From a virus, in IMG/VR virus record IMGVR_UViG_3300045049_000305, positions 1 to 25,749 of that record: a DNA stretch of 25,749 nucleotides, one strand, 5' to 3'. Positions 5,614-25,180 of this stretch are shown here, one piece after another; within the stretch, counting starts at the first letter, position 1, and each line of letters begins with the position of its first letter. The position numbers and the translations under genes were made by a program. The notes beneath the pieces are model-generated. The model searched no databases, was not told the origin of the DNA, and saw nothing but the letters and a program-made list of their open reading frames with translations.

Positions 5614-5623
5614 GGTCCGCCTC

Positions 5624-5911: not shown

Positions 5912-5923
5912 CTCCTCGTCTCC

Positions 5924-7429: not shown

Positions 7430-7499
7430 GTTTCCTCACCTCCCAACGCCTCTACAGCGGTCGGTCATCCGTATGCGGTTGTGCGGAGCGCGCGCCCAT

Positions 7500-7838
7500 C
7501 TACTGGGTTGGCGTGATCCGGGTCAGGTCGACATCGAGGTCCGGTGTCCAGGCGGCGCCGTACTTCTGGGTCACGTCGTTGACCAGGTAGAGCACGTTGT
7601 TGGTGTCGTCCCGCACCTGGTCGCCGGGCTTGACGTCCACGTTGGACTGGCACACGGCCTCGATCGCGCGGACGATCCGCGGCTGCTGCGTGGCCGGGTC
7701 GAACACGCGCTGGTTGACGTCCTCGATGAGGAACGGCACGCCGGTGGCGATGACCGTGCCGGTGTCGACGGTGTCGCCGAACTGATCGACGCTGGTGCCG
7801 CGGAGGATGCTCGCGGTGCACGAGGCGAGGGCGTACAT
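7500..7838 (-). CDS. Head closure / head-tail stopper protein
   Basis: This 112-residue protein starts MYALASCTASILRG with an ATG at 7838 that shares its first base with the previous stop (TGATG). The frame extends farther upstream, but that part overlaps the connector gene in another frame. It is mostly beta (DTGTVIATGVPFLIEDVNQR, VKPGDQVRDDTNNVLYLVND), the small-barrel layout of SPP1 gp16-like head closure proteins, with a GD-x-V-x-D strand typical of them. It would seal the portal/connector after DNA packaging and bind the tail. Assignment rests on size, order and strand pattern. Confidence 0.75.
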   Translation of the reverse strand: MYALASCTASILRGTSVDQFGDTVDTGTVIATGVPFLIEDVNQRVFDPATQQPRIVRAIEAVCQSNVDVKPGDQVRDDTNNVLYLVNDVTQKYGAAWTPDLDVDLTRITPTQ

Positions 7839-10465: not shown

Positions 10466-11524
10466 TCAGCTGCCGGAGTTGTCTTCCAGCACGGAGAAGG
10501 CGTTCTCGTGGCCGACGGCGAACGCGCGCCGAGCACGCATCTTGAGGATCGACTCGTCGGTCAAGGCGGCCAATCCATTCCTCCCGTCAATGAAGACGGA
10601 CTCGGGTCCACTGCGGACACCGAGCAGCAGGAACTCCTTCGAGCAGATGACCAGCAGCGGGTTGCCGGTCGGCGTCGCCGTCGGCGCTGCCGAGGTGCGG
10701 GCACCCAGCGTCCACTTGACCGGGTAGCCGAACAGCATGTCCGGGGTGGACGCCTGGCCGCCACCGGGGAAGCCGCCGCTGGACTCCTGGAAGATCGGCC
10801 GGCCGTTGAGGTCCTTGATGCCGCGCAACTTCCTCTTGAACGTCGGGTGCGCGAGCACGAGGGCCTGCTCCTCGTCCCAGTAGTCGCCGGTCTCGACCAG
10901 GCCGACCGTGGTGGACAGCAGGTCGTAGGTGGTGCCACCCGAACCGGTCTTGGTCAGGTTCGTGTTGGCCTGGTAGCCGGTCGCCGAGTCGGTCTGGGTG
11001 AGCGTGTAGTACAGCGAGTCGAACGCGCAGCCAGAGGCCGCCTTCGCCGCGGTGACGCCCAAGCAGGCGTTGTCGAGGCCCTTGGCGTAAGCCGTGGCCC
11101 AGTCGGACAGCTTGGTGTTGACCACGTCCGCCAGGCTGTCGTCGATGTCCTCCTCGGCGATCCGCACGGCCTTGCCGAACTTCTGGACGCTCAGGATGAC
11201 CTGGTCGTTGGTCGACTGGTCCTCGCCGTACGTCCCGCCCTTGGCCACGATGTCGATGCCGACACCGCCGGACCGCGGGGTCGAGCGCGTGGCGGTCTTC
11301 ATCGGGACCCGCTGGCCGTAGGACTCGATCGCCGAGACCTGCTTGACCTTCTGGATGACGTCGGAGCCGAACTCCTCCCAGACCCAGGCGTCGAAGTTGT
11401 TGCGGGCGCTGCCACCGAGGGCGCGGATCGGCTCGCCGTTGCGGCGGTAGCCGAGGATGTCGCCGACGTCGTGCGCCGGAACGGACTCGTCGAACAGGTC
11501 GAGGTCGAACTGGGATGCAGACAC
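10466..11524 (-). CDS. Major capsid protein (HK97 fold)
   Basis: This 352-residue protein most likely starts at GTG 11524, eight bases after GGAAGGG, reading MSASQFDLDLFDESVPAHDV. The open frame extends to 11677, but that extension is proline-rich and lacks a better ribosome site. Features of HK97-type capsids are a long N arm, the E-loop-like segment around GGVGIDIVAKGGTYG, the spine-helix-like region ADVVNTKLSDWATAYAKGLD, and late strands such as GYPVKWTLGARTS and LLVICSKEFLLLGV. There is no 100-residue delta-like prodomain, which fits the separate scaffold gene upstream. The gene is bracketed by hairpins, as expected for the most abundant virion protein. It forms the icosahedral shell. Confidence 0.92.
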   Translation of the reverse strand: MSASQFDLDLFDESVPAHDVGDILGYRRNGEPIRALGGSARNNFDAWVWEEFGSDVIQKVKQVSAIESYGQRVPMKTATRSTPRSGGVGIDIVAKGGTYGEDQSTNDQVILSVQKFGKAVRIAEEDIDDSLADVVNTKLSDWATAYAKGLDNACLGVTAAKAASGCAFDSLYYTLTQTDSATGYQANTNLTKTGSGGTTYDLLSTTVGLVETGDYWDEEQALVLAHPTFKRKLRGIKDLNGRPIFQESSGGFPGGGQASTPDMLFGYPVKWTLGARTSAAPTATPTGNPLLVICSKEFLLLGVRSGPESVFIDGRNGLAALTDESILKMRARRAFAVGHENAFSVLEDNSGS

Positions 11525-11743
11525 GGCGCGTGCCCTTCCGAGTGATGGGTGCGGTGGTGTCCTGCGCCCCATCACGGGCACGTCAGGGCATTTGAATTGC
11601 CCGATCGCCGGTCCTAGCGGGCCGTCCCATCCGGGTGGCCTGCTGTCTCGGAGAATACACGCGAAAGCGCCCGACACGGATAGTGTGGGCGCTTTCTAGG
11701 CGCGTTTCCCCTATTCGTTTTCACACGGTTTAGGGAATTGCGT
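11525..11743 (-). promoter_or_regulatory. Structured leader of the major capsid gene
   Basis: This stretch of about 219 bases separates the scaffold stop from the capsid start and is the largest gap in the minus-strand block. It contains the strong hairpin at 11663-11696, a small stem GGGCA/TGCCC at 11586-11602, an AT-rich part at 11701-11745, and the decamer GTGTGAAAAC on the minus strand (11717-11726). An unsupported in-frame extension of the capsid frame covers part of it. A capsid-specific promoter or a translation-control leader is likely; I cannot pick a convincing -35/-10 pair. Confidence 0.5.
11663..11696 (-). terminator. Hairpin in capsid leader
   Basis: The arms GAAAGCGCCC and GGGCGCTTTC are a perfect 10-bp inverted repeat. 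Inside them ACAC pairs with GTGT after one unpaired base, leaving a five-base loop. It lies between scaffold and capsid genes. It may end scaffold transcription before a capsid promoter, or protect or regulate the capsid message. Confidence 0.65.
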
Positions 11744-12526
11744 CTACCGCATCGAGTTGTGGATCTGCGCGGCGATCCGTTCCCCCGTCGTCTTGAACTG
11801 CGCGGGCGCGGGCTGCTTGTTCCCGGCGTCGATCCGCGGCGCGCGGCGGCGCTCCGGCTTGGCCGGCTCCGGCTCGGCGTCCTTGCCGAACAGCTCGGGG
11901 AACTCGTCGACCAGGTCGTCGATCTGGTCCTCGAGGCCGTCGACCTTCCCGGTCTCGGTGTCGACGTCGAGCTCGTCCATGTCCAGGCGCCGGATCATGC
12001 GGTTCAGGCGCTGCTCGGTGGGGTTGCGGAAGTCCGCCTTCATCAGCGCGGCGATCGCGGCCGACCGGATGGCAACCGGCTTGAACTTCTGCTCGGCGGC
12101 CTCCAGTGCGGCCTGCTCCCGCGCCGCGGCGTCCTCGTCGCCGGCCTGGCCGCCGCCCTGCTCGGCGACGCGAGTGGACTTGCGGAGCTCGCGGACGCGG
12201 AGCCGGTGCTTCTTGGCCTCGGCGTTCGCCTCGGTGAGGGCCTTCTGGGTCTTCTCCCACTCCTCGCGGGTGGGCGGCTTCCACTCGTCGCCCTTGGCCT
12301 TGTCGGCGCCGTCGTCGTGCTCGTCCTCCTCGTCTTCGTCGTCTTCGTCGTCGAGGATGTCCCGGCCGCCGCCGCTGCCCTGCGAGCCGCCGCCCTCCAG
12401 GTCGATCTCGGGGCCGTCGTCGTCATCGTTGGCGCCGCCGAGCGCCGGCCAGACGGGCGTGCCGTCGGAGAGCAGCCCGATGGCGGGCAGGAGCGTGTCC
12501 GGGTGGATGGGCAGGTCGAGCAGCAT
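11744..12526 (-). CDS. Capsid scaffolding protein
   Basis: This 260-residue protein starts with ATG at 12526, eight bases after AAAGGA; an ATG seven codons upstream lacks such a site. After a short N terminus (DGTPVWPALGGAN) it has a run of Asp/Glu at about residues 57-75, then a long charged helical region (TREEWEKTQKALTEANAEAK), a region FRNPTEQRLNRMIRRLDMDE followed by LEDQIDDLVDEFPELFG, and a basic C terminus. This acid-rich, coiled-coil make-up and location between MuF and capsid genes are typical of scaffolds, which guide capsid assembly and then leave. The basic C-terminal end is where scaffolds usually contact the capsid protein. Confidence 0.9.
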   Translation of the reverse strand: MLLDLPIHPDTLLPAIGLLSDGTPVWPALGGANDDDDGPEIDLEGGGSQGSGGGRDILDDEDDEDEEDEHDDGADKAKGDEWKPPTREEWEKTQKALTEANAEAKKHRLRVRELRKSTRVAEQGGGQAGDEDAAAREQAALEAAEQKFKPVAIRSAAIAALMKADFRNPTEQRLNRMIRRLDMDELDVDTETGKVDGLEDQIDDLVDEFPELFGKDAEPEPAKPERRRAPRIDAGNKQPAPAQFKTTGERIAAQIHNSMR

Positions 12527-12543
12527 GGCGGCGTTCCTTTCGA

Positions 12544-13623
12544 TCATGATCGGGCCTTGCGGGGGAAGTCGTTGAACCGGCCGCGGCGGACCGCGGTGCG
12601 GGCACGGGCCTGCACGGACTTCGGCAGGGTCGTGCCGCGGGCGAGCAGCCGAGACGCGGCGCGGAGCCTGGCCGGCTGGGACTCGGACGCCATGCGCCAG
12701 CCGGTGAGGATGCTGCGCTCGGCCTCCCGGCGAAGCGCGGCCGGCAGGTCGGGGCCGGTGTAGCCGGGCACGCTGCCCAGCCACACCGTGATCCGGCACC
12801 GGCAGTGCGGGTGCAGCGGGCATCCGGGCAGGAACATCGGGTCCGGCCACGGCACCAGCGGCTTGTCGCCGAACGTCAGCCCGACCGGGAACCCGTGGCC
12901 GGCTCGCGCGATGTGCCCGGAGTAGGCGAGGCAGTGCACGCACGCGTCCCGCTCCGCGACCCACAGCCGCTCGGCGTCGAGCTGGTCAGCGACCGCGGCG
13001 ACGCCGTCGTTGACGGCCTTGTTCGTGGCCCATGTTGCGGTCGCCTCGGTCGCGGTCGCTGCCTGCTGCGCCGGCGACAGTGCGGTGGCCAGCTCGGCGA
13101 AGTTGTTGCCGGCGATGCGCGTGACGGCGGTTTCGGCGTCGGCGAGCTTGCCGGCGACGGTGGCGTCCACGGCGCGGATCGCGTCCACGGTGGCCTGGTC
13201 GAGGTCGGCCGCTGGCCACTCGAAACGAGCCGCGCGGCGGCCGGTCGCCGGCAGGACGTGCTCGACGGCTCCTTCGGTGGCGTGGAGGTGCAGTTCGTCC
13301 ACGGCCTGCCGCACACCGAGGTCGATGGCCTGCTCCGCGTACCGAGTCAGTTCGTCGGCCGGGGTGAACCGGATGTCGGCGAGGCGGTTGCGTGTCTCGG
13401 TGGCGATGTCGTGCAGCGTGATCGGGTCGGCCGGCTCGTCGACCCGGCCAACCTTCCGCACCCACAAGGCGGAGAGCGTGCGCGTGAGCGCCTTCAGCTT
13501 GGCGCGTAGTGGCGCCGCGACACCGCGGGCCGCCCGCTCGAGGGCCAGCGCCTCGGCGGCGTGCTCCAGCACCAGCTGCAGCGTCGGCTGGTTCGGGGTC
13601 TGCGGCGGCTGCGGGGCGGTCAC
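12544..13623 (-). CDS. MuF-like head morphogenesis protein
   Basis: This 359-residue protein starts with GTG at 13623 overlapping the portal stop by four bases. The N-terminal two thirds are helical and Ala-rich. Residues about 215-285 carry a Cys/His segment typical of phage MuF (SPP1 gp7-like) proteins: ERLWVAERDACVHCLAYSGH, a GFPVGLTFGDKP strand, and GCPLHPHCRCRITVW. The CxxC and HPHCRC motifs probably bind zinc. The protein attaches to the portal and enters the procapsid in small numbers; in some phages it affects DNA ejection. There is no extra toxin-like C-terminal domain, as some MuF proteins have; the C terminus is basic. Confidence 0.9.
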   Translation of the reverse strand: MTAPQPPQTPNQPTLQLVLEHAAEALALERAARGVAAPLRAKLKALTRTLSALWVRKVGRVDEPADPITLHDIATETRNRLADIRFTPADELTRYAEQAIDLGVRQAVDELHLHATEGAVEHVLPATGRRAARFEWPAADLDQATVDAIRAVDATVAGKLADAETAVTRIAGNNFAELATALSPAQQAATATEATATWATNKAVNDGVAAVADQLDAERLWVAERDACVHCLAYSGHIARAGHGFPVGLTFGDKPLVPWPDPMFLPGCPLHPHCRCRITVWLGSVPGYTGPDLPAALRREAERSILTGWRMASESQPARLRAASRLLARGTTLPKSVQARARTAVRRGRFNDFPRKARS

Positions 13624-15278
13624 GCTGTGCCCGTGTCAGGGCCCATGAGCTCGGGCTCGCCGATGATCGAGCTGATCAGCTCCTGCACCTGGCCCTCGTC
13701 GACGATGCCGGTCGAGGCCGCGGCCGAGAGGCCCTGCAACGCGACGGCGATCTCCGAGAGCAGGTGCACGCGGAACGGCAGGTCGTCGTCGTTGTCGCCG
13801 AACCACTCGTCGGTCTGGTCCTTGGTGTAGCCGGCCTCCTGGAACGCCTGCGCCGGCGGGACACCGGCGTCGAGCTTGGCCTGGACGGTCTGCCAGCCGG
13901 TGAGGTCGTCCACGCTGGCCGGGGACTTCCAGTGCACGGTGACCTTGGGGTCGGGGACGCCGGTGATGCGCAGGGCGAACTCGAAGATCTCCCGCCAGGT
14001 CGCGCCGAAGGACAGCTGGCGGTTCACGATCTTCTTGACGAACGGCCCCTCGGCGGTGCGCAGGGACTCGCCGGACGGGGCGTCGCCACTGGGGTCGAAG
14101 TAGTGGAACGGGGTGACGCACAGCTGGGCCATGGCACGCAGGTAGACCTGGAGCGGGCCCATGAACGTCTCGGGGTTGGCCTCGGCGAACTGGCCGACCT
14201 CGGTGACGCCCTGCATGTACCAGAGCGAGCCGGGGTCGCTGGTCAGTTGGGACTGCGGGTCGGATGGCCGGCTGGTGGCGCCGGTGTCGAGGGCGAAGCT
14301 GAACTCGTCCTCGTCGGAGTTGACGGCGTCGGCGGTGTCGGTGTCCGGCGCGGTGAGCGCGTACCGCTGGGGGAAGGCTTGGTAGTCGACGCCAGCCATG
14401 TGGCTGAGGATCAGCTTGTGGATCGCGTCCTGCGGGCCGAACGCGGACAGGTGCTCCGGCTTGCCGTACGGCCGGCTGGCCGCGCGGAAGTGAAAGACGG
14501 GGACCTCGTTGAACGGATTTACGAGCGGCCACTCGTCACCCGGGTTGTCCCGGTACGGGTGCATGTCGCCGGCCTCGACGTTGGTGACGCCCTCCTTGGA
14601 GATGAACCGCTCGATCCGGTCCGGGTAGTACAGGTCGATGCGGACCTGCTGGGTGTTGTTCAAGATCCATTTCTTGACCGCGTACCGCTTCCGCAATGGG
14701 CGCTCGGGGTCGTAGAAGACCCGGCAGCAGTGCGGGCTGTTGTAGAAGATGTCGACGTTGAGGAACCCGTCGGCGTCGGTGTCGAGCAACTGGGGCGAGC
14801 CGTCGCCCTCGAAGTCGTCGGCGCCGTCCGGGGCGGTGGGCCAGACGATGACGTAGGCGTCGCCGTACTCGCACGCCTTGAGCATGATGTGCGGGGCCTC
14901 GAGGTCGAGCTGGTTGTCCCGCCACATGTCCTCGATGCGGGCGTTGCTGTTCTCGTCGGTCGCGGAGACGGCGTTGATCTCCAGGCGGTCGACGACAGCG
15001 TCCACGGGGGTCTTGGCGAAGTTGAACCGGAACCCCACACCGGTGCGGGCCATGGCGCGGCGGAGCCGGATCGAGGCGAAGAACTCGGGGACGGTGCCCT
15101 CGTAGTAGTTCTCGGCGCGCTGGTAGAGCACCGCGGAGGTGGTGAGGGATTCGATCGCGTTCTGCAGGTCCGAGGGCGATGATGGGCGCCATACGCCGTA
15201 GGCAGAATCCGACATGAGGGTAGGGGTGGCCGCGACGCCCATGGTGGCCTGATCGGTCAACGCGAGGTTCTTGTCCAC
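13620..15278 (-). CDS. Portal protein (SPP1 gp6-like)
   Basis: This 552-residue protein starts with GTG at 15278, six bases after AGGAGG. Recognisable parts are the N-terminal region with YQRAENYYEGTVPEFFASIR, the strand-rich wing with LDLEAPHIMLKACEYGDAYV and DLYYPDRIERFIS, the clip/stem region (QDAIHKLILSHMAGVDYQAF), and a C-terminal helical crown followed by EWFGDNDDDLPFR. These fit the SPP1 gp6-like portal family, which forms the dodecameric DNA gate at one vertex. Order (terminase, portal, MuF, scaffold, capsid) confirms it. The length is normal for this family. Confidence 0.94.
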   Translation of the reverse strand: MDKNLALTDQATMGVAATPTLMSDSAYGVWRPSSPSDLQNAIESLTTSAVLYQRAENYYEGTVPEFFASIRLRRAMARTGVGFRFNFAKTPVDAVVDRLEINAVSATDENSNARIEDMWRDNQLDLEAPHIMLKACEYGDAYVIVWPTAPDGADDFEGDGSPQLLDTDADGFLNVDIFYNSPHCCRVFYDPERPLRKRYAVKKWILNNTQQVRIDLYYPDRIERFISKEGVTNVEAGDMHPYRDNPGDEWPLVNPFNEVPVFHFRAASRPYGKPEHLSAFGPQDAIHKLILSHMAGVDYQAFPQRYALTAPDTDTADAVNSDEDEFSFALDTGATSRPSDPQSQLTSDPGSLWYMQGVTEVGQFAEANPETFMGPLQVYLRAMAQLCVTPFHYFDPSGDAPSGESLRTAEGPFVKKIVNRQLSFGATWREIFEFALRITGVPDPKVTVHWKSPASVDDLTGWQTVQAKLDAGVPPAQAFQEAGYTKDQTDEWFGDNDDDLPFRVHLLSEIAVALQGLSAAASTGIVDEGQVQELISSIIGEPELMGPDTGTA

Positions 15279-15358
15279 GGGCGTCCTCCTGTGCGCGGAT
15301 ATGCACAGGGTAAACGCGCTGTGCGGCTATTCCGGTAACGGACCGCAACATTAGCAGT

Positions 15359-15394
15359 GTGTGAAAACAATGCTGTCGAGAATTGTTTGCGCAC
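15359..15394 (-). promoter_or_regulatory. Imperfect inverted repeat between terminase and portal genes
   Basis: The two 13-base arms match at 11 positions, with a 7-bp core AAACAAT/ATTGTTT and a 10-base loop. It begins three bases after the terminase stop, in an AT-rich spot of an otherwise very GC-rich genome. It could be a weak terminator of the packaging operon or an operator. The 119-base gap ends with the AGGAGG site of the portal gene. Confidence 0.45.
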
Positions 15395-15397
15395 GAT

Positions 15398-17002
15398 TCA
15401 AGAGGCGATGTCATCGGCATCGAACCCAGCCGGCGGCAGCACGGTGACCTTCGACTTCTTGCCCGGCTTGAGGAACATGTCGATGCCGGTGCCAATCGCA
15501 TCCACCAGGTCGTCATGCGCGCCCTTGGGGAAGCCGACCATCTGCTCCTCGGCCTGCGTCAGAGGACGCTCGTGTACGACGTACGGCAGCCCGTCCGGCC
15601 GGCGGCGCTGGTACCAGTTCAGGGCGCGGGCGGCCCGGACCTCCTTGGCCTCGCCCTGGTGCACCGGTTTGATCGGCAGCGGGAGTCCCTTGAGGACGCT
15701 GTCCCGCCAGACTTGGCCGCCCTGGTTCGTCTCGACCACCACGCCGCGCGTCTCCGGGAACTCCTCCAGCACCTCCAGCACCCACTTGCGGAGCGGCTCG
15801 CCGGGCTGGACGCGCCGGGCGTGGGCGTAGCGGACGACGACCCGCCGGTGGTGCGCCGAGTAGGCAACGACGGCCAGCGCGGTGAAGTCGCTCTTGCCCT
15901 TGTCGGTGACCGCCGGGTCAATCGACAGCAGCTGGTGCGTGAGTGCAGGCACGGTGGCGTGGACGAAGTCCTCTTCGCGCCAGTACTCACCGTCCCGACC
16001 CATGGGGTCGTTGGCGTAGTTCTTCTTGTAGGCGCGGGTGTGCCGGATCGATTCGAGGTAGGCCAGTGGCCACTTCGCCGGCCACAGGCTCCGCTCGGCG
16101 CCAGTCTCGTCGTCGCGGACGATCGCCGGGTAGTAGTGGACTCGCCAGTGCTCGTCGGCAATCCACGGCGGGTGTTCCTCGCCGGGCTTGGTGACGGTCT
16201 TGACCAAGTCGTGCACGATGGAGCCCGGCATGGTGACGGTGCCGACCAGGACCACGCGGGCATAGACGTTGAGCGGCAGGATCGCGTCGAGCAGTGTGGA
16301 GAGCCGCTTCTCCTTGAGATATGGCGAGTAGTTCGACTCGTCGGGCTCGACGTCGTCCAGCACGATCAGGTCTGGCCGCCGCTCGGCGACCTTCATGCCG
16401 AGGGCGGCGCCGTCGACACCGCGGGCGGCGAACACGAACCCGGACTTGGTGATCAGCATGCCGCGGTTGTCGGACTCGGTGCTTCCGCGCGGCCGGCGGG
16501 CCGGCGTGCACAGCTGGGGGAAGTCCAGCGCCAGCAACGCGTTCTGGTCGAGCTCGCGCTTGAACGTCTGGAGGTGCAACTCGGCCTGCGTGGCGGAGTG
16601 TGCAAAGGCGGCGCAGAACCGGCGGTGCCCATGCGCCGCGGACCAGAGGGGCAGCACGAGGAAGAACCAGGTGCTCTTACCGACGCCGCGGGGGCCGACG
16701 TAGGTATCCCGGTCCTCCGCCGGGTTGTCGGATGGGAGCGCCCACTTCTTCGCCTCGACGACGACGTCCAGGTGGAACTCGCTGAACGTGATGCGCTCGC
16801 CGGTCTCCTTACCCCGCAGGTGGTGCGGCAGATACAGCAAGGCGAACAAGAGCGGGTCGTACTTGGTGAGGAGCCGCCGGCACTCGGCGATCTCCAGCAT
16901 CCGCGGGTCGAACTGCGCGAGGTACGCGTCCAGGTTGAAGCCGACCCCCGACGCCGGGTCTGCCGGGTCGGGGGTCGGCTCGTGATCCTGGACAGCGGTC
17001 AC
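15398..17002 (-). CDS. Terminase large subunit
   Basis: This 534-residue protein starts with GTG at 17002, overlapping the stop of a 44-codon ORF. The ATPase domain has Walker A GPRGVGKST at residues 103-111 and Walker B LIVLDDVE at 212-219, followed by a likely coupling motif in VVLVGTVTM. The C-terminal nuclease domain of RNase H type shows SIDPAVTDKGKSD (Asp362), VVVETNQGG (Glu424) and GAHDDLVDAIG (Asp497, Asp498, Asp501). All catalytic positions are present, so it should be a working packaging motor and nuclease. It docks on the portal. The gene order with TerS and HNH upstream and portal downstream is standard. Confidence 0.96.
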   Translation of the reverse strand: MTAVQDHEPTPDPADPASGVGFNLDAYLAQFDPRMLEIAECRRLLTKYDPLLFALLYLPHHLRGKETGERITFSEFHLDVVVEAKKWALPSDNPAEDRDTYVGPRGVGKSTWFFLVLPLWSAAHGHRRFCAAFAHSATQAELHLQTFKRELDQNALLALDFPQLCTPARRPRGSTESDNRGMLITKSGFVFAARGVDGAALGMKVAERRPDLIVLDDVEPDESNYSPYLKEKRLSTLLDAILPLNVYARVVLVGTVTMPGSIVHDLVKTVTKPGEEHPPWIADEHWRVHYYPAIVRDDETGAERSLWPAKWPLAYLESIRHTRAYKKNYANDPMGRDGEYWREEDFVHATVPALTHQLLSIDPAVTDKGKSDFTALAVVAYSAHHRRVVVRYAHARRVQPGEPLRKWVLEVLEEFPETRGVVVETNQGGQVWRDSVLKGLPLPIKPVHQGEAKEVRAARALNWYQRRRPDGLPYVVHERPLTQAEEQMVGFPKGAHDDLVDAIGTGIDMFLKPGKKSKVTVLPPAGFDADDIAS

Positions 17003-17133
17003 ACCTGCTCCGGCGGCCGGTGAGCGTCACAGCACCCGTCGGCCGTGACCTGGCCAACGCACTCCTCGCTGTCGCGTTGGCACGGCAGGTATTCCTCGTC
17101 GGACACGAGCGGGCGGTCGAACCCGGGGCTCAT
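16999..17133 (-). CDS. 44-residue Cys-rich small protein
   Basis: This short frame starts with ATG at 17133 in an ATGA overlap with the previous gene and stops at 16999 in an overlap with the GTG start of the terminase large gene. It fills the gap exactly, which supports it as a real coupled gene. The product begins MSPGFDRPLVSDEEYLPCQR and contains four Cys (18, 25, 34, 35) and a His at 38. This might be a tiny zinc-binding fold, but no family can be named. An alternative is that it only serves to couple translation into terminase. Confidence 0.65.
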   Translation of the reverse strand: MSPGFDRPLVSDEEYLPCQRDSEECVGQVTADGCCDAHRPPEQV

Positions 17134-17435
17134 GCCGGCCACGCCCAGTTGCCCGGCTGGTCGCCCTCGACGCGCGAGGTCGCCCAGTACTGGCCGTACC
17201 CGTCGAGTTGCACCATCAGGTTGGCCGTGGTGGTCGACGGGTCGAACACGGCGACGATCGTCGCTGGGTAGATCTGGCCGGCGTGGACCGAGTTGCGCTG
17301 GTAGATGTCGTACTCGCCGCCGTCGAGGCGGGTGCCCTTCCGGTGCTGCGGCGCGTAGGAGTCGATGAGGGCAAGGTCGCCCTCGCTGACCTTGTAGAGG
17401 ACGTGCGCGCCGATGCTCGGCTTCTGGTCGGTCAT
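17130..17435 (-). CDS. Small hypothetical protein upstream of terminase
   Basis: This 101-residue protein (MTDQKPSIGAHVLYKVSEGD...) starts with ATG at 17435 behind GGAGAG. It is beta-rich (VLYKVSEGDLALID, YPATIVAVFDPSTTTANLMV, LDGYGQYWATSRVEGD) and ends GNWAWPA. The VLY-V-x-x-G-D-x-x-x-I start and repeated strands suggest a small barrel, as in other actinophage proteins of unknown role. It is coupled by an ATGA overlap to the 44-residue ORF and so to terminase. No function is claimed. Confidence 0.75.
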   Translation of the reverse strand: MTDQKPSIGAHVLYKVSEGDLALIDSYAPQHRKGTRLDGGEYDIYQRNSVHAGQIYPATIVAVFDPSTTTANLMVQLDGYGQYWATSRVEGDQPGNWAWPA

Positions 17436-17512: not shown

Positions 17513-18223
17513 CTATCCAACCCACCGCCACGGCACCGGGTCTGGTCGGAGCGCCGCGTTCAGCGCGTCGTGGTGGACCACGACGGCCGTCCCAGGTGGT
17601 ACGAGCGGGCTGTACCGGATCGGCAGGTCGGGCATCGCGCCGACGGCGACGCGCGTCATCACGGCGGGACCGTCGGCCGCTCGGCAGTAGAGGGCGCGGC
17701 CGGTCAGCTCGGTCGGCTCATGCCGTGCCTGCTGCATGTGGGCAACGGCGACGCGCGCTGCGTCTGCGATGTGCCGCTCCAGCTCGCTCGCCGGCGCGAC
17801 CGCCGCAGGCATGGCCAGCGGGGAGAAGTCGAGCACCTCGACGGGCTCCTCCTCGACGTTCCCCGCGGTGATCCGGTACGACCGCACCTCGGGCTCGTCG
17901 GCGCGGAGCGAGACGATGACGTAGTGCGCGTCCGGTTCGGCGGCGTACCGCACATCCGGCGCGGACGGGTACGCCTCGGTGGCCGGGTGGGAGTGGTAGA
18001 TGACCACCGGTTGCTCGCCGCGCCGGTCCATGTCGAGCCACACGGCGAGCTGCTCGCCGGGGTCCATCTCGTAGCGGCTGCGGGACTGGGCGGCGTTGCG
18101 CATGGGGACGTGCCGCTCGGCGAGCCCATCCCGGCCGGCGAGCACGCCGCACGCTTCGAGGGGTGCTTCGGCGCGGCAGTGGGCGACCATGGCGTCCAGG
18201 AGGTCACGGCGTAGGCGCAGCAC
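17513..18223 (-). CDS. JAMM/MPN metallopeptidase, Mec+ (CysO-cysteine peptidase)-like, with C-terminal extension
   Basis: The chosen start is GTG at 18223, six bases after GGAGG, giving 236 residues; an ATG 18 bases earlier lacks such a site. The first ~135 residues closely follow, from memory, actinobacterial Mec+ proteins: LRLRRDLLDAMVAHCRAEAP, EACGVLAG (Glu23), and the complete JAMM zinc motif H77-S-H79 with S87 and D90 (HSHPATEAYPSAPD). Then come AEPDAHYVIVSL and RSYRI. Mec+ cuts the bond between the ubiquitin-like sulfur carrier CysO and cysteine. About 95 further residues (ELERHIADAARVAVAHMQQA to PVPWRWVG) form an extra domain of unknown type that chromosomal Mec+ proteins lack. No CysO or CysM gene is visible here. 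All catalytic residues are intact, so activity is likely; the substrate is unknown. Confidence 0.88.
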   Translation of the reverse strand: MLRLRRDLLDAMVAHCRAEAPLEACGVLAGRDGLAERHVPMRNAAQSRSRYEMDPGEQLAVWLDMDRRGEQPVVIYHSHPATEAYPSAPDVRYAAEPDAHYVIVSLRADEPEVRSYRITAGNVEEEPVEVLDFSPLAMPAAVAPASELERHIADAARVAVAHMQQARHEPTELTGRALYCRAADGPAVMTRVAVGAMPDLPIRYSPLVPPGTAVVVHHDALNAALRPDPVPWRWVG

Positions 18224-18407
18224 TGGGTGCCTCCGGTTCATCCAGGGCGGCGCGCAGGCCGTCGATGATGTACTGCACGGAGCCCGACGCGCGGTGCTCC
18301 TCGTCGTGCTCCAGCGACGTGATCGCCTCGCGGATCGCGGCGCCGAGCCGGTCGACGCGGCGGCCGAGGATCCGGGCCAGCGCGGTCGAGGTGGCCGAGG
18401 CGCTCAT
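18204..18407 (-). CDS. Small helical protein (67 residues)
   Basis: The start is ATG at 18407 in an ATGA overlap with the preceding small gene, and the end overlaps the start of the JAMM gene by 20 bases. The product MSASATSTALARILGRRVDR... is predicted to be mostly helical (LGAAIREAITSLEHDEEHRA, then VQYIIDGLRAALDEPEA). No known motif is seen. A dimeric helical bundle is a fair guess. The tight overlaps on both sides argue that it is a real gene expressed with its neighbours. Confidence 0.65.
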   Translation of the reverse strand: MSASATSTALARILGRRVDRLGAAIREAITSLEHDEEHRASGSVQYIIDGLRAALDEPEAPSAAPTP

Positions 18408-18601
18408 GCCGGCTTCCCCTTGACCTCGACCCAGTCGACGGCGGTGAGGTTGATGAGGCGCTGGCCGGACGCGTCGTTGATGGTGAGGACGCCACCGAAG
18501 CCGAGGTCGTCGACCAACGCGGTGAACTGCTTCAGCTCGTCGTCGGTGGGGCTGTAGGCGACGGTGTCGCCGTTGCGCATGTGCAGGACGATCGGGATCA
18601 C
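18404..18601 (-). CDS. Small beta-rich protein (65 residues)
   Basis: GTG at 18601 overlaps the HNH stop by four bases (GTGA), and the stop overlaps the next ATG. The product reads VIPIVLHMRNGDTVAYSPTD, then DELKQFTALVDDLGFGGVLT and INLTAVDWVEVKGKPA. The alternation of short strands and one helix, with a final strand WVEVK, resembles small phage proteins of unknown role that bind or modulate partners. No function can be named. The longer frame extending to 18931 is antisense-like noise within the HNH gene. Confidence 0.65.
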   Translation of the reverse strand: MIPIVLHMRNGDTVAYSPTDDELKQFTALVDDLGFGGVLTINDASGQRLINLTAVDWVEVKGKPA

Positions 18602-19074
18602 GGCTGCTCCTTCGAAGCGGGCGGCCACTCGCTGGCCGGCACGAACTCGGCCGGCGGCGGCGCACCCGCGCGCCGATACCGCAGCGGCTCCCAGAACGGG
18701 CCCGGCAGCACGTGCACGCCGAGGTGCGTCCGGTGGTGCGTCGCGCACAGCGGCTCTAGGTTCCCCGGCCCCTCGATCCACGCCTGGAAATCGGCGTCGG
18801 ACTCGAAGTGCAGGCCGAACGCCGCGGCGACCTTGTCCGGGTCCATGTTGTTGACCTCGGAGAACTCGATGTGGCTGTGGTGCAGCTCGATCGGGCCGCC
18901 GCACAGGTCGTCGCCGATGACGCACTTCCACAGGCCCTGCCGATGGAGCCGGGCCTTGGCCTGCATGAACAGGTGGTAGTGCGGGTCGGACTCGCGGGGT
19001 TGGTGCTCCGGGACGTGGGCGAGGATGTGCAGCGTTAGTCGCTGCTCGTGCGCCGGCGTCGGGTGGTCAACCAT
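18598..19074 (-). CDS. HNH endonuclease near terminase
   Basis: This 158-residue protein starts with ATG at 19074, overlapping the previous gene by eight bases. The HNH core is PIELHHSHIEFSEVNN (His65-His66), then GNLEPLCATHHRTH (Asn105, His113-His114), with Cys51, Cys58 and Cys110 as possible zinc ligands. A region before it contains a helix, HLFMQAKARLHRQGLWK. In HK97-like phages an HNH protein next to the terminase is needed with it to cut concatemers at cos ends; this gene is a good candidate for that role. A homing nuclease is less likely because the gene is embedded by overlaps in the packaging operon. Confidence 0.85.
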   Translation of the reverse strand: MVDHPTPAHEQRLTLHILAHVPEHQPRESDPHYHLFMQAKARLHRQGLWKCVIGDDLCGGPIELHHSHIEFSEVNNMDPDKVAAAFGLHFESDADFQAWIEGPGNLEPLCATHHRTHLGVHVLPGPFWEPLRYRRAGAPPPAEFVPASEWPPASKEQP

Positions 19075-19366
19075 CAGTCGGCTCCTTCGGCTTGGCGTCC
19101 TTCAACTCCGCGTCCGCCCACCGGCCCCAGAACTCCGCCTGCGCCTGGGCTATCGCCATCTGGAAGTCGAGCTCGGCCGTGGCCGCCGCCTTCACGGCTT
19201 CCTCGATGGCCTGCACCGTCCGGCACGGCCACGTCTGCGGGTTCTCGCCAGCGCACTCCGCGCAGCTGCCGTACTCCTCGTGATGCAGCCGCAGCACCGC
19301 CGCCGCGACAGGGTTCGCACTCGACACGCGGGCCAGTTCCACCACGCGGTCCCAGTCAGCTGCCAT
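19067..19366 (-). CDS. Small Cys-containing hypothetical protein
   Basis: This 99-residue protein starts with ATG at 19366, overlapping the terminase small subunit candidate by 11 bases. It opens with MAADWDRVVELARVSSANPV, then HHEEYGSCAECAGENPQTWP and CRTVQAIEEA, followed by a long helix (ATAELDFQMAIAQAQAEFWG) and a charged tail. The CAEC...WPC spacing, preceded by His, resembles a short zinc-ribbon used in actinobacterial small proteins. It may bind DNA or a partner of the packaging machinery. No named family. Confidence 0.7.
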   Translation of the reverse strand: MAADWDRVVELARVSSANPVAAAVLRLHHEEYGSCAECAGENPQTWPCRTVQAIEEAVKAAATAELDFQMAIAQAQAEFWGRWADAELKDAKPKEPTDG

Positions 19367-19895
19367 CGACGCCGCCCTTCAACCGGGCCTCGGCCAGCGC
19401 GGCGTCGGCCTTGGCCTTGTTCACCATGTCGATCAGTTCGAGGTCCTGCTGCGTCGTCTCCGTCAGCGTCGCGTCCACCTTCAGCGCGCCCTCCGTGCCG
19501 TGGAGGCGCATCATGCGGCCCACCAACGACTCGGCCCGCCCGATCGCCGCGAGCGTCACGCCCGGGTCCTCGAGCGGGACGCCGTCCGGTCCACGGACCA
19601 CGCGGCCGTCCGACACGAGCGGGTGGGGTGTGCGGATGATCTCGACGGCCCGGTTGAACAGTCGCTCGAGGCGGTCGTGCTGGACGCGGCGGTACTGCTC
19701 GCGGAGCGGGTCGACGGTCTCCCGGATCTCGCACTCCAGGCGCCGGCTGACGGTGGTCTTGGACAGGCCGGTGAGCTCGGCGATCTCGCGGAGGTTGTGG
19801 CCGGCGAGGTACAGCTCGTAGCAGATGCGTTGTTCTTCGGCGAAGTGTGCGTTGGTGTAGCGGGGCTTGCGGTAGGGCTGGATTCCCCCGGCCAT
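19356..19895 (-). CDS. Terminase small subunit candidate (HTH)
   Basis: This 179-residue protein starts with ATG at 19895, eight bases after AGGAGGT. Residues about 34-54 form a clear helix-turn-helix: HNLREIAELTGLSKTTVSRR. A coiled-coil region follows (REQYRRVQHDRLERLFNRAV) and then a helical C terminus (LELIDMVNKAKADAALAEAR). HTH at the N terminus, coiled-coil oligomerisation region and C-terminal helices are the layout of terminase small subunits, which bind the packaging site and recruit the large subunit. Position a few genes before TerL fits, although HNH and the JAMM gene lie between. A transcription regulator is a weaker alternative. Confidence 0.78.
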   Translation of the reverse strand: MAGGIQPYRKPRYTNAHFAEEQRICYELYLAGHNLREIAELTGLSKTTVSRRLECEIRETVDPLREQYRRVQHDRLERLFNRAVEIIRTPHPLVSDGRVVRGPDGVPLEDPGVTLAAIGRAESLVGRMMRLHGTEGALKVDATLTETTQQDLELIDMVNKAKADAALAEARLKGGVDGS

Positions 19896-19930
19896 CGCGT
19901 TCCACCTCCTACGTTCCGTTTGCCGGCGTG

Positions 19931-20161
19931 CTATTTGTTACGTGTGAGTGCGGCCCGGATTCGCGCGGCGCGTGTCCTTGTGGTTCCGTGCCCGGCCTTG
20001 TTCTTAGGGAGTGAGCGGTAACCAGTCTTCTTTCCGCGCTCGGCGACGATCTGCTCGGCCCAGCGGTGCGCGAAGGGCTTCTTCGTGGCGAACATCCATC
20101 GCCACTGAGCTTGCGAGTGGGCTGGACCTGGCGATTTGCGGTGTCCGTGTTCCTTGGGCAT
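19931..20161 (-). CDS. Small basic phage protein
   Basis: This 76-residue, strongly basic protein starts with ATG at 20161 behind GGGGAGG. Its core, AQWRWMFATKKPFAHRWAEQ, resembles a pattern I know from small phage proteins (S-x-AQ-x-R-x-MFA...AHKWA) of unknown role, often near the terminase or within structural proteins; that is a recollection, not a search. It ends with a basic tail of TRTRAARIRAALTRNK. It may bind nucleic acid. Confidence 0.65.
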   Translation of the reverse strand: MPKEHGHRKSPGPAHSQAQWRWMFATKKPFAHRWAEQIVAERGKKTGYRSLPKNKAGHGTTRTRAARIRAALTRNK

Positions 20162-20195
20162 TCACGCCTCCCCGTCGTTGTTTCCCTGGCCAGTA

Positions 20196-20444
20196 TCACC
20201 CGCCGAGGTGCATGAGGGCGTCGGCGTCCGCCGTGGACGGAGTGGGCGCGTCTGTGCTGGTGGCGGGCTGGAGGGCGACGAGTTCGAGATGCAGCGTGCC
20301 CGTGGGGAGTTGGGTGGCGCGGACCTGGTGGTTGTCGGGGAGGAATTCGTTGGGGCGGATGCTGGCGGTTCCTCCGGCGCGGGCGACGAGTACGCAGAGC
20401 ACTGCCTGCGTGATGTCTTTGTCCGTGCTTTCAACTTCGCTCAC
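20196..20444 (-). CDS. First gene of the minus-strand block, hypothetical
   Basis: GTG at 20444 follows AGGAG by six bases and lies just downstream of a good promoter candidate. The 82-residue product starts MSEVESTDKDITQAVLCVLV, continues with beta strands around FLPDNHQVRATQLPTGTLHL and ends in a Pro/Ala/Thr-rich tail DAPTPSTADADALMHLGG. No recognised motif. It may be a small early or structural-block leader protein. Confidence 0.68.
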   Translation of the reverse strand: MSEVESTDKDITQAVLCVLVARAGGTASIRPNEFLPDNHQVRATQLPTGTLHLELVALQPATSTDAPTPSTADADALMHLGG

Positions 20445-20470
20445 GGTGTGCTCCTAGCTATTCGCTGGGC

Positions 20471-20498
20471 GTTATCGCCATCGTGTTCGTGTTATCAA
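20471..20498 (-). promoter_or_regulatory. Sigma70-like promoter for the minus-strand block
   Basis: Read on the minus strand, a -35 candidate TTGATA (five of six to TTGACA) is followed by a 16-base spacer and a -10 candidate GATAAC (four of six to TATAAT). Transcription would begin about 20 bases before the GTG of the first gene, with AGGAG between. The region is AT-richer than its neighbourhood. This is sequence inspection only. Confidence 0.5.
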
Positions 20499-20609
20499 AC
20501 CGTGGCGTGTCGGCGGGTCGGCGGCGTTTGTCTGTGGGTTAGCGTATGCCGAAAGCCGTCAGCCGCCGCGACATCTGATGCCTGTTCGTTGTGCGCGCCG
20601 CTGATTGCT

Positions 20610-20623
20610 TTTCGCACGCGAAA
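20610..20623. promoter_or_regulatory. Palindrome in divergent region (operator-like)
   Basis: TTTCGC-AC-GCGAAA is a perfect 6-bp inverted repeat with a two-base spacer, 10 bases before the start of the HTH gene and overlapping its ribosome-site region. It could be an operator for that HTH protein or another regulator, or a short attenuating stem. Confidence 0.4.
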
Positions 20624-20633
20624 GGCGGTGCTG

Positions 20634-20873
20634 ATGGATCCGCAGACCGAGACGAAGTACGTCACCCCCAAGCAGCTCGGGGAGCGCCTCGGCGTGACGT
20701 CCCAGAACGTGCTGTACCACGTGAGGCGGGGGCACATCGCGGCCGAGCGGCCCGGCGGCCGGGACGTGCTGATCCCGGTGGCGGAGGCGGATCGGGTGGC
20801 CGAGATGTACCGGCCGCACGCCCAGCGGATCTGGCAGGCGCGGCGGCCGAAGCCGGAGGCGCAGAGTGCCTGA
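20634..20873 (+). CDS. Excisionase/MerR-like HTH DNA-binding protein
   Basis: This 79-residue protein starts with ATG at 20634, eight bases after AAAGG. It reads MDPQTETKYVTPKQLGERLG, then VTSQNVLYHVRRGHIAAERP and GGRDVLIPVAEADRV. This is a winged helix-turn-helix of the excisionase family type: a two-turn HTH whose recognition helix is followed by a wing (I-x-A-x-R-x-G-G-R-x-x-L-I-P). Such small proteins act as regulators or excisionase-like recombination factors. It is the first gene of the plus-strand block and lies beside an operator-like palindrome, so autoregulation or control of the divergent promoters is plausible. The longer frame reaching back to 20136 is not supported. Confidence 0.82.
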   Translation: MDPQTETKYVTPKQLGERLGVTSQNVLYHVRRGHIAAERPGGRDVLIPVAEADRVAEMYRPHAQRIWQARRPKPEAQSA

Positions 20874-21456
20874 CGCGACGATGGAGGTCGTGTTCTTCGG
20901 TGGTCCGTACGACGGCCGACCCGAGGTGGTCCCCGCGTACGAGGACAGCCTGATCGGGCAGGTCCCGACCGAGGTTCGCATGCATCGGTTGCCGCCGCCG
21001 GAGTTTCTGCGCTACGACCCGAGCGGCCTGATGCCCCAGCGGCTCGTCTACGAGCGGCAGCATCGCGGCGGCCGGTGGGCGTACGTCTTCTGTGACGCCG
21101 ACCCGGACGATCTCCTGCATGTTCCGCCGCTGACGGATCCGTTGCTGGAGGCCGTGGTCGCTCACGTGCGCAAGGTGTGGCCGCAGCAGCGGGTGATTGT
21201 CCGCAGCCACGCTGTCGATCACCAGGCGCGGATCGAATGCGGCGCGAACCTGGAGAAGCGCGTCCGCTCGTGGGTGCTGCATCAGCTGCACGAGGCGGCG
21301 GCCGAGGAGGACCTGATGCTGTTGGCAGTCGACGGGCCGACATGGGCACCGACGAACAGCGACTACATGGACAAGCTGCTGGTGTCGGCGTGCGCGATTC
21401 CTCGCTTCCGCCCGTTGACGCAGCGTCTGAGCGAGGAGGCGGCGCGTCGTGCCTGA
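20866..21456 (+). CDS. Hypothetical protein, plus-strand operon
   Basis: GTG at 20866 overlaps the HTH gene by eight bases, giving 196 residues. The N terminus, MEVVFFGGPYDGRPEVVPAY after a short lead, has an FFGGPYDG segment that recurs in small actinophage proteins of unknown function, followed by YERQHRGGRWAYVFCDADPD. The C-terminal part changes character (DLLHVPPLTDPLLEAVVAHV, VVDHQARIECGANL-type helices) and resembles a separate helical domain. It could be a fusion of two small modules. No enzyme motif is visible. Confidence 0.75.
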   Translation: MPDATMEVVFFGGPYDGRPEVVPAYEDSLIGQVPTEVRMHRLPPPEFLRYDPSGLMPQRLVYERQHRGGRWAYVFCDADPDDLLHVPPLTDPLLEAVVAHVRKVWPQQRVIVRSHAVDHQARIECGANLEKRVRSWVLHQLHEAAAEEDLMLLAVDGPTWAPTNSDYMDKLLVSACAIPRFRPLTQRLSEEAARRA

Positions 21457-21898: not shown

Positions 21899-22200
21899 CG
21901 GGGCTGACGCTGGCTCCGCTGGAGGACCCCAACTACGTGCCGAAGCACCAGCCGTGGCGTGGCTCCGTGCCGGAGGTCGTCGCCCGGTGGGGGTGGCGAA
22001 GCCAGCTCCGCTGGTTCGCCCGGTTCCGCAACCAACTTCGCTTCCAGCAGCCGGAGTATTGGGACCGGTTCTTCATCGACAGCGAGCTGCACCACGGCCT
22101 GTGCTGCGGCTCGTGCTGGAGCGACATCGAGGACGGGTACGAGGAGTACGACCCGCAGCTCTGCTGCTGCCGCGCCGAGCGCAGGAGGACCAGCGCGTGA
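21895..22200 (+). CDS. Cys-rich hypothetical protein
   Basis: GTG at 21895 overlaps the preceding stop by four bases; 101 residues. The first part is Arg/Trp/Phe-rich (RWGWRSQLRWFARFRNQLRF), and the C-terminal part carries CCGSCWSDIEDGYEEYD and LCCCRAERRR, so five or more Cys lie in two clusters. This may be a small metal-binding module. It sits directly before the first glycosyltransferase and may assist it, but no family is recognised. Confidence 0.7.
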   Translation: MTGLTLAPLEDPNYVPKHQPWRGSVPEVVARWGWRSQLRWFARFRNQLRFQQPEYWDRFFIDSELHHGLCCGSCWSDIEDGYEEYDPQLCCCRAERRRTSA

Positions 22201-23282
22201 GGATCTTCGGCTGGCCGGCCGACTTCGCGGGCTGCGCCTACTACCGCATCCACCAGCCACTCGACGAGCTGGGCCGCCACGGGCACGACGTCACCGCGAA
22301 GCGCGTCGCGCTGGGGACCGCCGACGCGGCGATGTACTCGGCTGATGTGGTTGTGGGGCAGCGGATCTGCACGCCGCCGCCGTCGGCCCGGTGGGCGGCG
22401 TTCCGGCTGTACAAGGAGCAGCGGTACCGGGAATGGCTGGCGGCGTCGTGGAGGTCCAACCGGGACCTGGTGCAGATCGTCAAGAAGCTCGACGCCCGCC
22501 CGGCCAGCCGCCCGAAGCTGGTGTTCGAGATCGACGACAACTTGTGGCGGGTTGACCCGTCGTCGCCCCAGGCCTACGAGGCGTTCGCGCCGCCGGAGAT
22601 TCGGCGCCGCCTGGCACAGAACGCGGGGCTGGCCGACACCGTGACGGTCAGCACGCCGACGCTGGGCGACGTCATGTCGCAGTTCAACCGGGACGTGCGG
22701 GTGATCCCGAACTGCATCCCGGCGGCGCTGCTGGAGCACGAGCCGCCGCGGCGCACCGACGGTGTGGTGACGATCGGCTGGGCCGGGTCGCACACGCACG
22801 CGATGGACTGGGCGCAGGTCGACGAGCATCTGGTGCGCGCGCTGAAGAAAGCGAGGCGCACGGAGCTGCACGTGATGGGCGGGATGGATCCGCGGTGGTC
22901 CCGTGTGCCGGCGCACCGGATGCGGGTGACCGGGTGGACGGACTCCGTTGAGGACTACCACCGGAAGCTGGACTTCCACATCGGCATCGCCCCGCTCAAG
23001 CAGCATCCGTTCAACCTGTCGAAGTCGCCGGTGAAGGCCCTGGAGTACGCGGCGCTCGGGATCCCCGTGGTGGCCAGCGATGTCGGCCCGTACCGGGACT
23101 TCGTCAAGCACGGCGAGACCGGGTTCCTGGTGCGCCGGCCGGAGGAGTGGACGCGGTACCTGCTGGACCTGGTGTTCGACGAGGCGATGCGGGAGGAGAT
23201 GGGCCGCAACGCCCGGAAGCAGGCCAGCGAGCACACGATCGAGGCCACCTGGCCTCTCTGGGAGGAGGCCTTGAAGCCGTGA
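22197..23282 (+). CDS. GT-B glycosyltransferase (GT4-like)
   Basis: This 361-residue protein starts with GTG at 22197 (GTGA overlap). It opens MRIFGWPADFAGCAYYRIHQ, the usual start of phage GT-B enzymes that have P-x-x-F-A-G-C-x-Y-Y-R. The second domain holds VTIGWAGSHTHAMDW, an acceptor/donor-binding strand, and the donor-binding segment SKSPVKALEYAALGIPVVAS, with the late Glu of the E-x7-E type region and VGPYRD. It should transfer a sugar from a nucleotide-sugar to a protein, DNA or surface polymer. Next to it lie a GT-A enzyme and a methyltransferase. No signal peptide or membrane segment, so it is probably cytoplasmic. The target is not shown by sequence. Confidence 0.88.
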   Translation: MRIFGWPADFAGCAYYRIHQPLDELGRHGHDVTAKRVALGTADAAMYSADVVVGQRICTPPPSARWAAFRLYKEQRYREWLAASWRSNRDLVQIVKKLDARPASRPKLVFEIDDNLWRVDPSSPQAYEAFAPPEIRRRLAQNAGLADTVTVSTPTLGDVMSQFNRDVRVIPNCIPAALLEHEPPRRTDGVVTIGWAGSHTHAMDWAQVDEHLVRALKKARRTELHVMGGMDPRWSRVPAHRMRVTGWTDSVEDYHRKLDFHIGIAPLKQHPFNLSKSPVKALEYAALGIPVVASDVGPYRDFVKHGETGFLVRRPEEWTRYLLDLVFDEAMREEMGRNARKQASEHTIEATWPLWEEALKP

Positions 23283-23992: not shown

Positions 23993-24581
23993 CGTGCCGG
24001 AGGTCCGGATCAGTCCGGACAGGACGCAGGTTGCGGTCCTCACGGATCCCGGCCAGCACACACCATGGGCCACGGTCAGGGTGCTGATCGGCGGCGTTGC
24101 AACGGACGAGTGGGTGGCTGGATGGACGCCACTCGTCGATGCAACGGAGCAGGCGGTCACTCCTGACAAAGCTGCCGCGCTGGTCCTCTACGAGGCGGCC
24201 GAGTGGGTGGCGTCCTACCGGGACCAGATGAAGCGGGGCTCCGGCGACCGGCGTGCCGCCGAGCGTATCCACGCCGTGCTGGCGGATCGGGCCCGGCGGC
24301 GGCACCTCGGCGAGCTGTACGACCCGGCGATCGCCGTGAGCGGGGAGTTGCTGCGGCAGGAGCTCGCGGCGCGGCCAGCGCCGGTGGACCTGGCTGGGCT
24401 GGCCGACAAGTGGGAGAAGGAGGCGCACGCCATCGCCACTGACGGGTTCGTGCCGCTGTCCATCCGCGACAAGGGAACGCCAGAGGACGCAGCGCAGTGG
24501 CGGAAGCAGGCCGAGGCGCAGGCGTACGGCATGAACTGGTGCGCAGGCGAACTGCGGCGAGCGATGGGGGCTGGCCAGTGA
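23985..24581 (+). CDS. Hypothetical protein between glycosyltransferase and methyltransferase
   Basis: GTG at 23985 overlaps the GT-A gene by eight bases; 198 residues. Residues 1-50 are beta-type (VPEVRISPDRTQVAVLTDPG, ATVRVLIGGVATDEWVAGWT). The rest is helical and Ala/Arg-rich (AALVLYEAAEWVASYRDQMK, then ISGEL-type helices and QAEAQAYGMNWCAGELRRAM). No catalytic motif is seen. It could be an accessory protein of the sugar cassette, or unrelated. Confidence 0.72.
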   Translation: MADVPEVRISPDRTQVAVLTDPGQHTPWATVRVLIGGVATDEWVAGWTPLVDATEQAVTPDKAAALVLYEAAEWVASYRDQMKRGSGDRRAAERIHAVLADRARRRHLGELYDPAIAVSGELLRQELAARPAPVDLAGLADKWEKEAHAIATDGFVPLSIRDKGTPEDAAQWRKQAEAQAYGMNWCAGELRRAMGAGQ

Positions 24582-25180
24582 CCGAGTGGCAGCTGTTCGA
24601 GTCGGGCACCGTGCCGGAGTGCACGACGCCGGCCTGGTACGAGGGCCGCGAGCGTGCGCCGCACGTCGACCAGGACGCGCACCGCGGCCGGCTCGTGCTC
24701 GCCGCCGACATGGTGCGGGACGCGATCGACCAGTACGGGGTGCGGTCCGTTGTGGACCTCGGGTGCGGCGACGGCGGACTCCTGTCGCTGCTCCAGCCGT
24801 ACTCGTTCGAGCACGACGTGCCGATGTGGGGCTACGACCTCCAGCGCTCCAACGTGAACCCGGCCGTGCTGGAGCGCGAGGTCGACGTGCGGTTCGGTGA
24901 CGCGGTGAACGGCGCCGTCGAGTGGGGCGAGCTGGCGGTGTGCACCGAGTTCCTGGAGCACCTGGTCGACCCTCACGGGTTCGTGCGCCGGGTCGGCGAG
25001 CACGCGCGGGTGATCGTGGCGAGCTCGCCGTTTACGGAGACCGACCAGTCGCACTACGAGTTCCACACCTGGGCGTTCGACATGGCCGGGTATCGGGCGC
25101 TGATCGAGCAGGCCGGCTACCACGTCGAGCGGCACGAGACGACGTCGATGTTCCAGGTGATCCTCGGGAGGAAGCCGTGA
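24578..25180 (+). CDS. SAM-dependent methyltransferase (class I)
   Basis: GTG at 24578 overlaps the previous stop by four bases; 200 residues. The SAM-binding motif I is VVDLGCGDGGLL (about residues 58-69); the second acidic position is in WGYDLQRSN, motif IV is in CTEFLEHLVDPHGF, and the rest ends in SSPFTETDQSHYEFHTWAF. The pattern resembles small-molecule or sugar O-methyltransferases of the UbiG/type 11 kind, not DNA N6-adenine (no DPPY) or C5-cytosine (no PCQ) enzymes. It may methylate a sugar placed by the two neighbouring transferases. Confidence 0.87.
   Translation: MTEWQLFESGTVPECTTPAWYEGRERAPHVDQDAHRGRLVLAADMVRDAIDQYGVRSVVDLGCGDGGLLSLLQPYSFEHDVPMWGYDLQRSNVNPAVLEREVDVRFGDAVNGAVEWGELAVCTEFLEHLVDPHGFVRRVGEHARVIVASSPFTETDQSHYEFHTWAFDMAGYRALIEQAGYHVERHETTSMFQVILGRKP

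Follow-up and report, generated by a model that had tools for sequence, protein, structure and literature searches.

A virus contig of 25,749 nucleotides (IMG/VR record IMGVR_UViG_3300045049_000305, positions 1 to 25,749; hereafter the window) encodes, close to its terminase genes, a JAMM protein that by its sequence groups with actinobacterial Mec and not with the tail-tip or head-block JAMM proteins of phages. Mec is the bacterial enzyme that frees cysteine from the small carrier protein CysO, and we judge it roughly an even call that the phage-borne homologue releases cysteine from CysO of the host. The probable place of action is the host cell, not the virus particle, and the gene looks like optional cargo without a fixed place in the genome rather than a part of the head.

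Gene, start and active site

The JAMM gene lies in the packaging block of the window, in the following arrangement.

15398-17002, minus strand: terminase large subunit, TerL (phrog_38, E 8.6e-68)
16999-17142, minus strand: possible 47-residue open reading frame before TerL, no PHROG
17130-17435, minus strand: 101-residue protein, phrog_19300 (E 3.6e-16), with homologues near TerL in L008 and L074
17513-18223, minus strand: Mec-like JAMM protein of 236 residues, open reading frame with GTG start and PF14464 match
17516-17698, minus strand: its C-terminal region (residues 176-236), different in L008 and matched only by L002 (about 43% identity)
17699-17830, minus strand: its linker, residues 132-175, absent from L002 in the alignment, with one helix (147-166) at low pLDDT
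17831-18223, minus strand: its JAMM domain, residues 1-131, with E23, H77, S78, H79, S87 and D90 (PF14464, alignment, AlphaFold2)
18230-18234, minus strand: GGAGG ribosome-binding site, 6 bases 5′ of the GTG, read from the sequence
18204-18407, minus strand: short gene B, 67 residues, overlapping the JAMM start by 20 bases
18404-18601, minus strand: short gene A, 65 residues, also upstream of the JAMM gene in L008 and L002
18598-19074, minus strand: HNH-endonuclease-like protein (phrog_8048, E 8.3e-5, weak; no Pfam match)
19067-19366, minus strand: 99-residue protein of the cassette region
19356-19895, minus strand: probable terminase small subunit, terS (helix-turn-helix and weak TerS matches)

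The reading frame is uninterrupted from the GTG at 18223 to the stop at 17513, and its first residue aligns with the starts of the L002 (ATG), L008 (GTG) and phage Dryad (ATG) proteins, residue for residue. Because three relatives begin at the equivalent position, the GTG start proposed in the first-pass annotation, with GGAGG six bases upstream, is well supported; an alternative ATG at 18241 was rejected, as its 6 added residues have no counterpart in the relatives. In Pfam, only Prok-JAB (PF14464) exceeds its cut-off: over residues 7-118 it scores 107 bits, where 25 are required (E 5.9e-31). The motif E...HSHx7SxxD is complete, comprising the Glu23, H77, H79, S87 and D90 picked out at first sight together with S78, and all six residues are kept in the 12 phage JAMM copies that were aligned. 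Among the three closest phages the domain has a dN/dS of 0.37-0.41 (a rough Nei-Gojobori estimate), indicative of purifying selection.

An AlphaFold2 model built on five sequences reaches a pLDDT of mostly 70-90 over residues 1-130, with two lower blocks at 41-60. The closest solved structures, from a fold search with the full model that covers residues 1-141, are PfJAMM1 (5lda; 125 residues superposed at rmsd 2.1, Z 17.5) and 2kks, and the bacterial Ubl-deubiquitinase 8tyx is also among the nearest.

Behind the domain, residues 132-236 form an extension of about 105 residues (not the 95 or so estimated earlier), made up of the linker and a part of about 60 residues. The extension is small or missing in most other phage copies. 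Searched alone against Pfam, PHROGs, phages and viral contigs, the C-terminal region matched only L002, with no Pfam and no usable PHROG match, and AlphaFold2 on this region alone gave an unusable model (pLDDT 43). Nine weak matches in 396 actinobacterial genomes align to unrelated protein parts and were taken as chance; those in phiT46-1-like prophages, which run antisense to the terminase/portal junction, were discounted. The region has a dN/dS of 0.74 (rough, Nei-Gojobori), against 0.37-0.41 for the JAMM domain. The extension is weakly constrained and swappable: one phage shares it, another that is nearly identical to the window has a different part in its place, and no confident fold emerges. 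Its likeliest origin would be fusion with downstream small genes, and it may perhaps serve as an adaptor that the shorter phage copies can dispense with.

Affinity to actinobacterial Mec

Scored against five group profiles, the window protein reached 166 bits with that of the cysO-operon mecs and 158 bits with that of the other actinobacterial JAMMs (a small margin); the desampylase profile gave 64, the tail-tip profile 47 and the head-block profile 26 bits. A tree of 52 sequences unites the proteins of the window, L008 and L002 (100/98) and places this clade with Dryad and actinobacterial mec (88/92), whereas the tail-tip and head-block JAMMs have clades of their own. With eight more phage sequences, a clade of 25 rows containing 12 phage proteins and 11 mecs of cysO operons is recovered at 88/98; its internal branching is mostly unresolved, and the strict subclade of cysO-operon mecs does not include the window lineage. 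The first-pass annotation had read the N-terminal domain as Mec-like and set a tail-tip affinity against that reading; at 166 bits for Mec and 47 for the tail-tip group, with the tree in agreement, the Mec-like reading holds.

Individual positions refine this placement. E96, H100 and S115 are common to the window protein and all 11 Actinomycetes-type mecs and occur in few or none of 12 other actinobacterial JAMMs, while the window protein departs from Mec-fixed positions at T80 (to P), R88 (to A) and T89 (to P). We considered E96 and H100 as a sign of CysO use and rejected them, since L032, L033 and L041 lack H100 yet adjoin cysO-like genes. The two residues mark a clade, not the use of CysO.

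Gene order identifies the bacterial rows as true mecs. It reads clpS-DUF2017-mec-cysO-cysM in L007 and mec-cysO-cysM in L004 and L006, in agreement with the actinobacterial operon of Iyer et al. 2006 (PMC1779556), and several further bacterial rows adjoin cysO-like genes ending AVAGG. One 11.85-Mb Nonomuraea record (NZ_LT559118.1) is filed as 'plasmid I', and its size and mec-cysO-cysM operon look chromosomal.

General databases label the domain in other ways. PHROGs calls it 'tail protein', which is misleading in that the library probably consists mostly of tail JAMMs. The desampylase model NF041370 gives the window protein 89.4 bits, below its curated cut-off of 130, and true mecs 64-67.

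An exchanged cassette beside the terminase

The window and L008 are 99.5% identical in nucleotides over 10556-17002 (TerL to capsid) and 96% over 18625-20874; the stretch between these blocks differs, its JAMM part being 84% identical and the C-terminus different. By rough Nei-Gojobori estimates, TerL dS is 0.01 between the window and L008 and 0.65 between the window and L002; for the JAMM gene it stays near 0.4 whichever two of the three phages are compared. A JAMM divergence that stays constant while that of TerL ranges so widely indicates that the cassette was exchanged between phages.

Related terminases often stand without the gene. In most TerL relatives terS directly precedes TerL; in L071, whose TerL is 84% identical, terS (5409-5933) is followed by TerL at 6001 with nothing between, and its 11.6-kb fragment contains no JAMM. 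Among 59 viral loci with a related TerL, only G001 and G002 have a JAMM in the flanks, G002 having come to light in a separate search of its own. PF14464 was found in 7 of the 47 whole TerL-related records searched; among the 16 records exceeding 60 kb, 6 had a match and 10 had none. These absences are provisional, because many records are fragments. Where the gene is present its position varies, lying more than 21 kb from TerL in G420, G440, G442 and G443 and preceding the capsid gene in G400. Of three further phages chosen by their JAMM, two have the gene on the terminase side, L133 immediately ahead of terS-TerL and L134 ahead of TerL, so that terminase-side insertion happened more than once. 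This recurrence is the strongest point for a role in packaging, and a hot spot for cargo explains it equally.

The first-pass annotation placed the JAMM gene between an HNH nuclease and TerL. Both flank it, the former by a weak match, but short genes intervene: two towards the HNH gene (18404-18601 and 18204-18407) and two towards TerL (17130-17435 and 16999-17142). Short gene B has no Pfam family over cut-off and no PHROG. Short gene A was tried as a CysO-like fold and dismissed (HHalign probability 2%). Since the JAMM gene overlaps its neighbour and a scan for one promoter type saw no promoter-like site across the cassette, it is likely transcribed late, together with the packaging genes. 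After TerL follow the portal and a MuF-like protein, and the capsid gene is of HK97 type (PF05065), preceded by an acidic gene whose composition suggests a scaffold. Glycosyltransferase (21954-23282) and methyltransferase (24497-25180) genes lie on the plus strand, opposite to the structural genes.

Several neighbours in the related phages are of separate interest. L002 carries a PLD-family protein (1516-2067; PF13091, 3e-11) that adjoins terS in place of the HNH-like gene of the window, and L008 a VIT1-family membrane protein (7278-7805; 5e-9) between HNH and gene A. Another reading frame of L002 (2952-3320; phrog_5845, 1e-33, unknown function) ends 20 bases inside the JAMM gene and has the pattern GNCLQAAVASLL...HAVV...WDPHPSRDG, papain-like by eye. 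An 82-residue protein with an invariant C-terminal DALMHLGG behind a variable linker (window 20196-20444, minus strand; L002 145-393; L046 10864-11112) was found only in the three phages with this JAMM cassette; as these share the entire block, the co-occurrence proves nothing. As a ubiquitin-like substrate it was rejected (HHalign probability 0.4% against CysO; codon conservation over the greater part of the gene), and the DNA surrounding the 3′ end is likewise conserved.

Possible functions

We propose that a zinc JAMM peptidase was acquired from the actinobacterial Mec lineage and retained as optional cargo. Late in infection the enzyme would act on the host sulfur carrier CysO, cutting directly behind its C-terminal glycine, and the cysteine freed from CysO-cysteine would provide an extra supply of cysteine (and thiol) during virus production. 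CysO is the putative substrate and cysteine supply the presumed benefit; kinship, the intact catalytic set, the cargo behaviour and a pathway common among hosts speak for this reading. Hosts of this actinophage group usually have the pathway, which counts toward CysO: of 296 actinobacterial genomes searched with a model derived from the phage proteins, 168 have a JAMM at E<=1e-5. No ThiS-family (CysO) match occurs in the window, G001 or G002, and no cysM was seen in the phage gene lists, the window being a fragment; the absence of cysO and cysM beside the phage gene concerns the context of the bacterial gene and is not a property of the enzyme. Against CysO as substrate, the host would already possess a Mec and the phage brings no CysO; by tree and alignment, the window lineage falls outside the strict mec subclade and differs at Mec-fixed positions. 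Of the three ideas of the first-pass annotation, the freeing of cysteine from CysO of the host has the most support; it is not new, as viral mec is already reported by VIBRANT.

The same fold could serve to disarm the host. A captured Mec might strip a host ubiquitin-like modifier from a phage or defence protein, for example a CD-NTase, and the swappable C-terminal regions would then be targeting parts. Bacterial defence JAMMs do deconjugate Ubls (Cap3; PMC10097602), the nearest structures include PfJAMM1 with SAMP2 and the Ubl-deubiquitinase 8tyx, and an exchangeable cassette with a faster-changing C-terminal part is what an arms-race gene is expected to look like. Yet actinobacterial Mec is a metabolic enzyme, and the PADLOC JAB defence models match the window protein weakly (best E 0.0076) where the Mec profile gives 166 bits; no partner was identified, host partner genes lying outside that search. 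We consider such counter-defence unlikely, and hold out only a slim prospect for its extended form, in which a Mec core with exchangeable C-terminal parts would be a modular phage deconjugase aimed at different ubiquitin-like defence conjugates.

Distinctly unlikely, in our estimate, is a role in morphogenesis, with the protease processing some protein of the head or of packaging, as is presumed for the Patience-type head-block JAMMs. Location speaks for it: a JAMM lies in the packaging or head block of the window phage, G001, G002 and G400, independent ones precede the terminase in L133 and L134, and some 90 other actinophage records have a JAMM, beside MuF genes where opened. An S78 prohead protease was not found in the window, G001, G002, G400 or Dryad, which bears out an earlier remark on the window; with a scaffold-like gene preceding an HK97-type capsid gene, this absence is ordinary and needs no special explanation. 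However, the Patience-type JAMMs form a separate clade, and the TerL-to-capsid block shared with G001/L008 at 99.5% identity comes with a JAMM that is only about 80% identical and has another C-terminus. The insert-free L071, the four TerL relatives with the gene more than 21 kb away and the 10 of 16 long records without a PF14464 match weigh in the same direction, so that the role on a virion protein suggested at first is weakened.

Relation to known systems

Viral mec genes have been described before. In VIBRANT, mec is one of the 14 viral auxiliary metabolic genes called 'globally conserved' (PMC7288430), and it recurs in the Baltic Sea (PMC9301287) and in a Roseobacter prophage (PMC11309003). 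The genes so named (K21140; PMC7288430, PMC9301287) share with ours the annotation and the proposed role in cysteine supply; they differ in that those surveys use KEGG annotation, which could include tail-tip JAMMs, whereas here tree and profiles show the kinship with true mec. As a core auxiliary gene, 'mec' owes its label to KEGG annotation, and the fold in question also serves phages in their tails and heads. Phage JAMMs that truly fall in the mec group, recurrent in actinophages at varied genome positions, make the cysteine-supply claim directly testable. We found no paper on this exact protein in the open literature, subscription journals being outside that scope. What is added here is a Mec-clade phage family defined by a tree, the exchange of its cassette beside the terminase, and the swappable C-terminal parts.

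With actinobacterial Mec of the mec-cysO-cysM operon the window protein shares the catalytic set, the domain length, E96/H100/S115, the top profile score and the clade; it differs in being phage-encoded without cysO or cysM, in its 105-residue extension and in several changed Mec-fixed positions. The closest named phage counterpart is gp95 of Streptomyces phage Dryad (MT498037), already annotated 'metalloprotease', a Mec-clade JAMM that is 51% identical with the same start; unlike the window protein it lacks the extension, and its gene, far from the terminase, is surrounded by small non-structural genes.

The JAMMs of Patience/Madruga, Konstantine/Oaker, Troll4 and Gordonia phages likewise stand among actinophage head genes, but they form a separate clade, are at most 33% identical and lie beside MuF. 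About 90 Mycobacterium, Gordonia and Nocardia phage records carry such a different JAMM, with MuF-type head genes adjacent in the four that were opened:

L009, 8860-9300: JAMM beside head genes
L059, 5977-6435: JAMM beside head genes
L060, 5977-6429: JAMM beside head genes
L061, 5884-6345: JAMM beside head genes

Their labels conflict, ranging from tail protein, head maturation protease and metalloprotease to major capsid protein. The earlier statement that phage JAMMs are mostly tail-tip proteins does not apply to actinophages, given these records. Tail-tip JAMM-NlpC/P60 proteins of the lambda gpK type, for which the NlpC/P60 partner and a Ubl-bearing gpI neighbour have been described (PMC1779556), share the JAMM fold and motif; they belong to a tail operon and a separate clade, whereas the window gene lies in a packaging block. 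Three kinds of actinophage JAMM are thereby separated that databases lump together as tail protein or metalloprotease.
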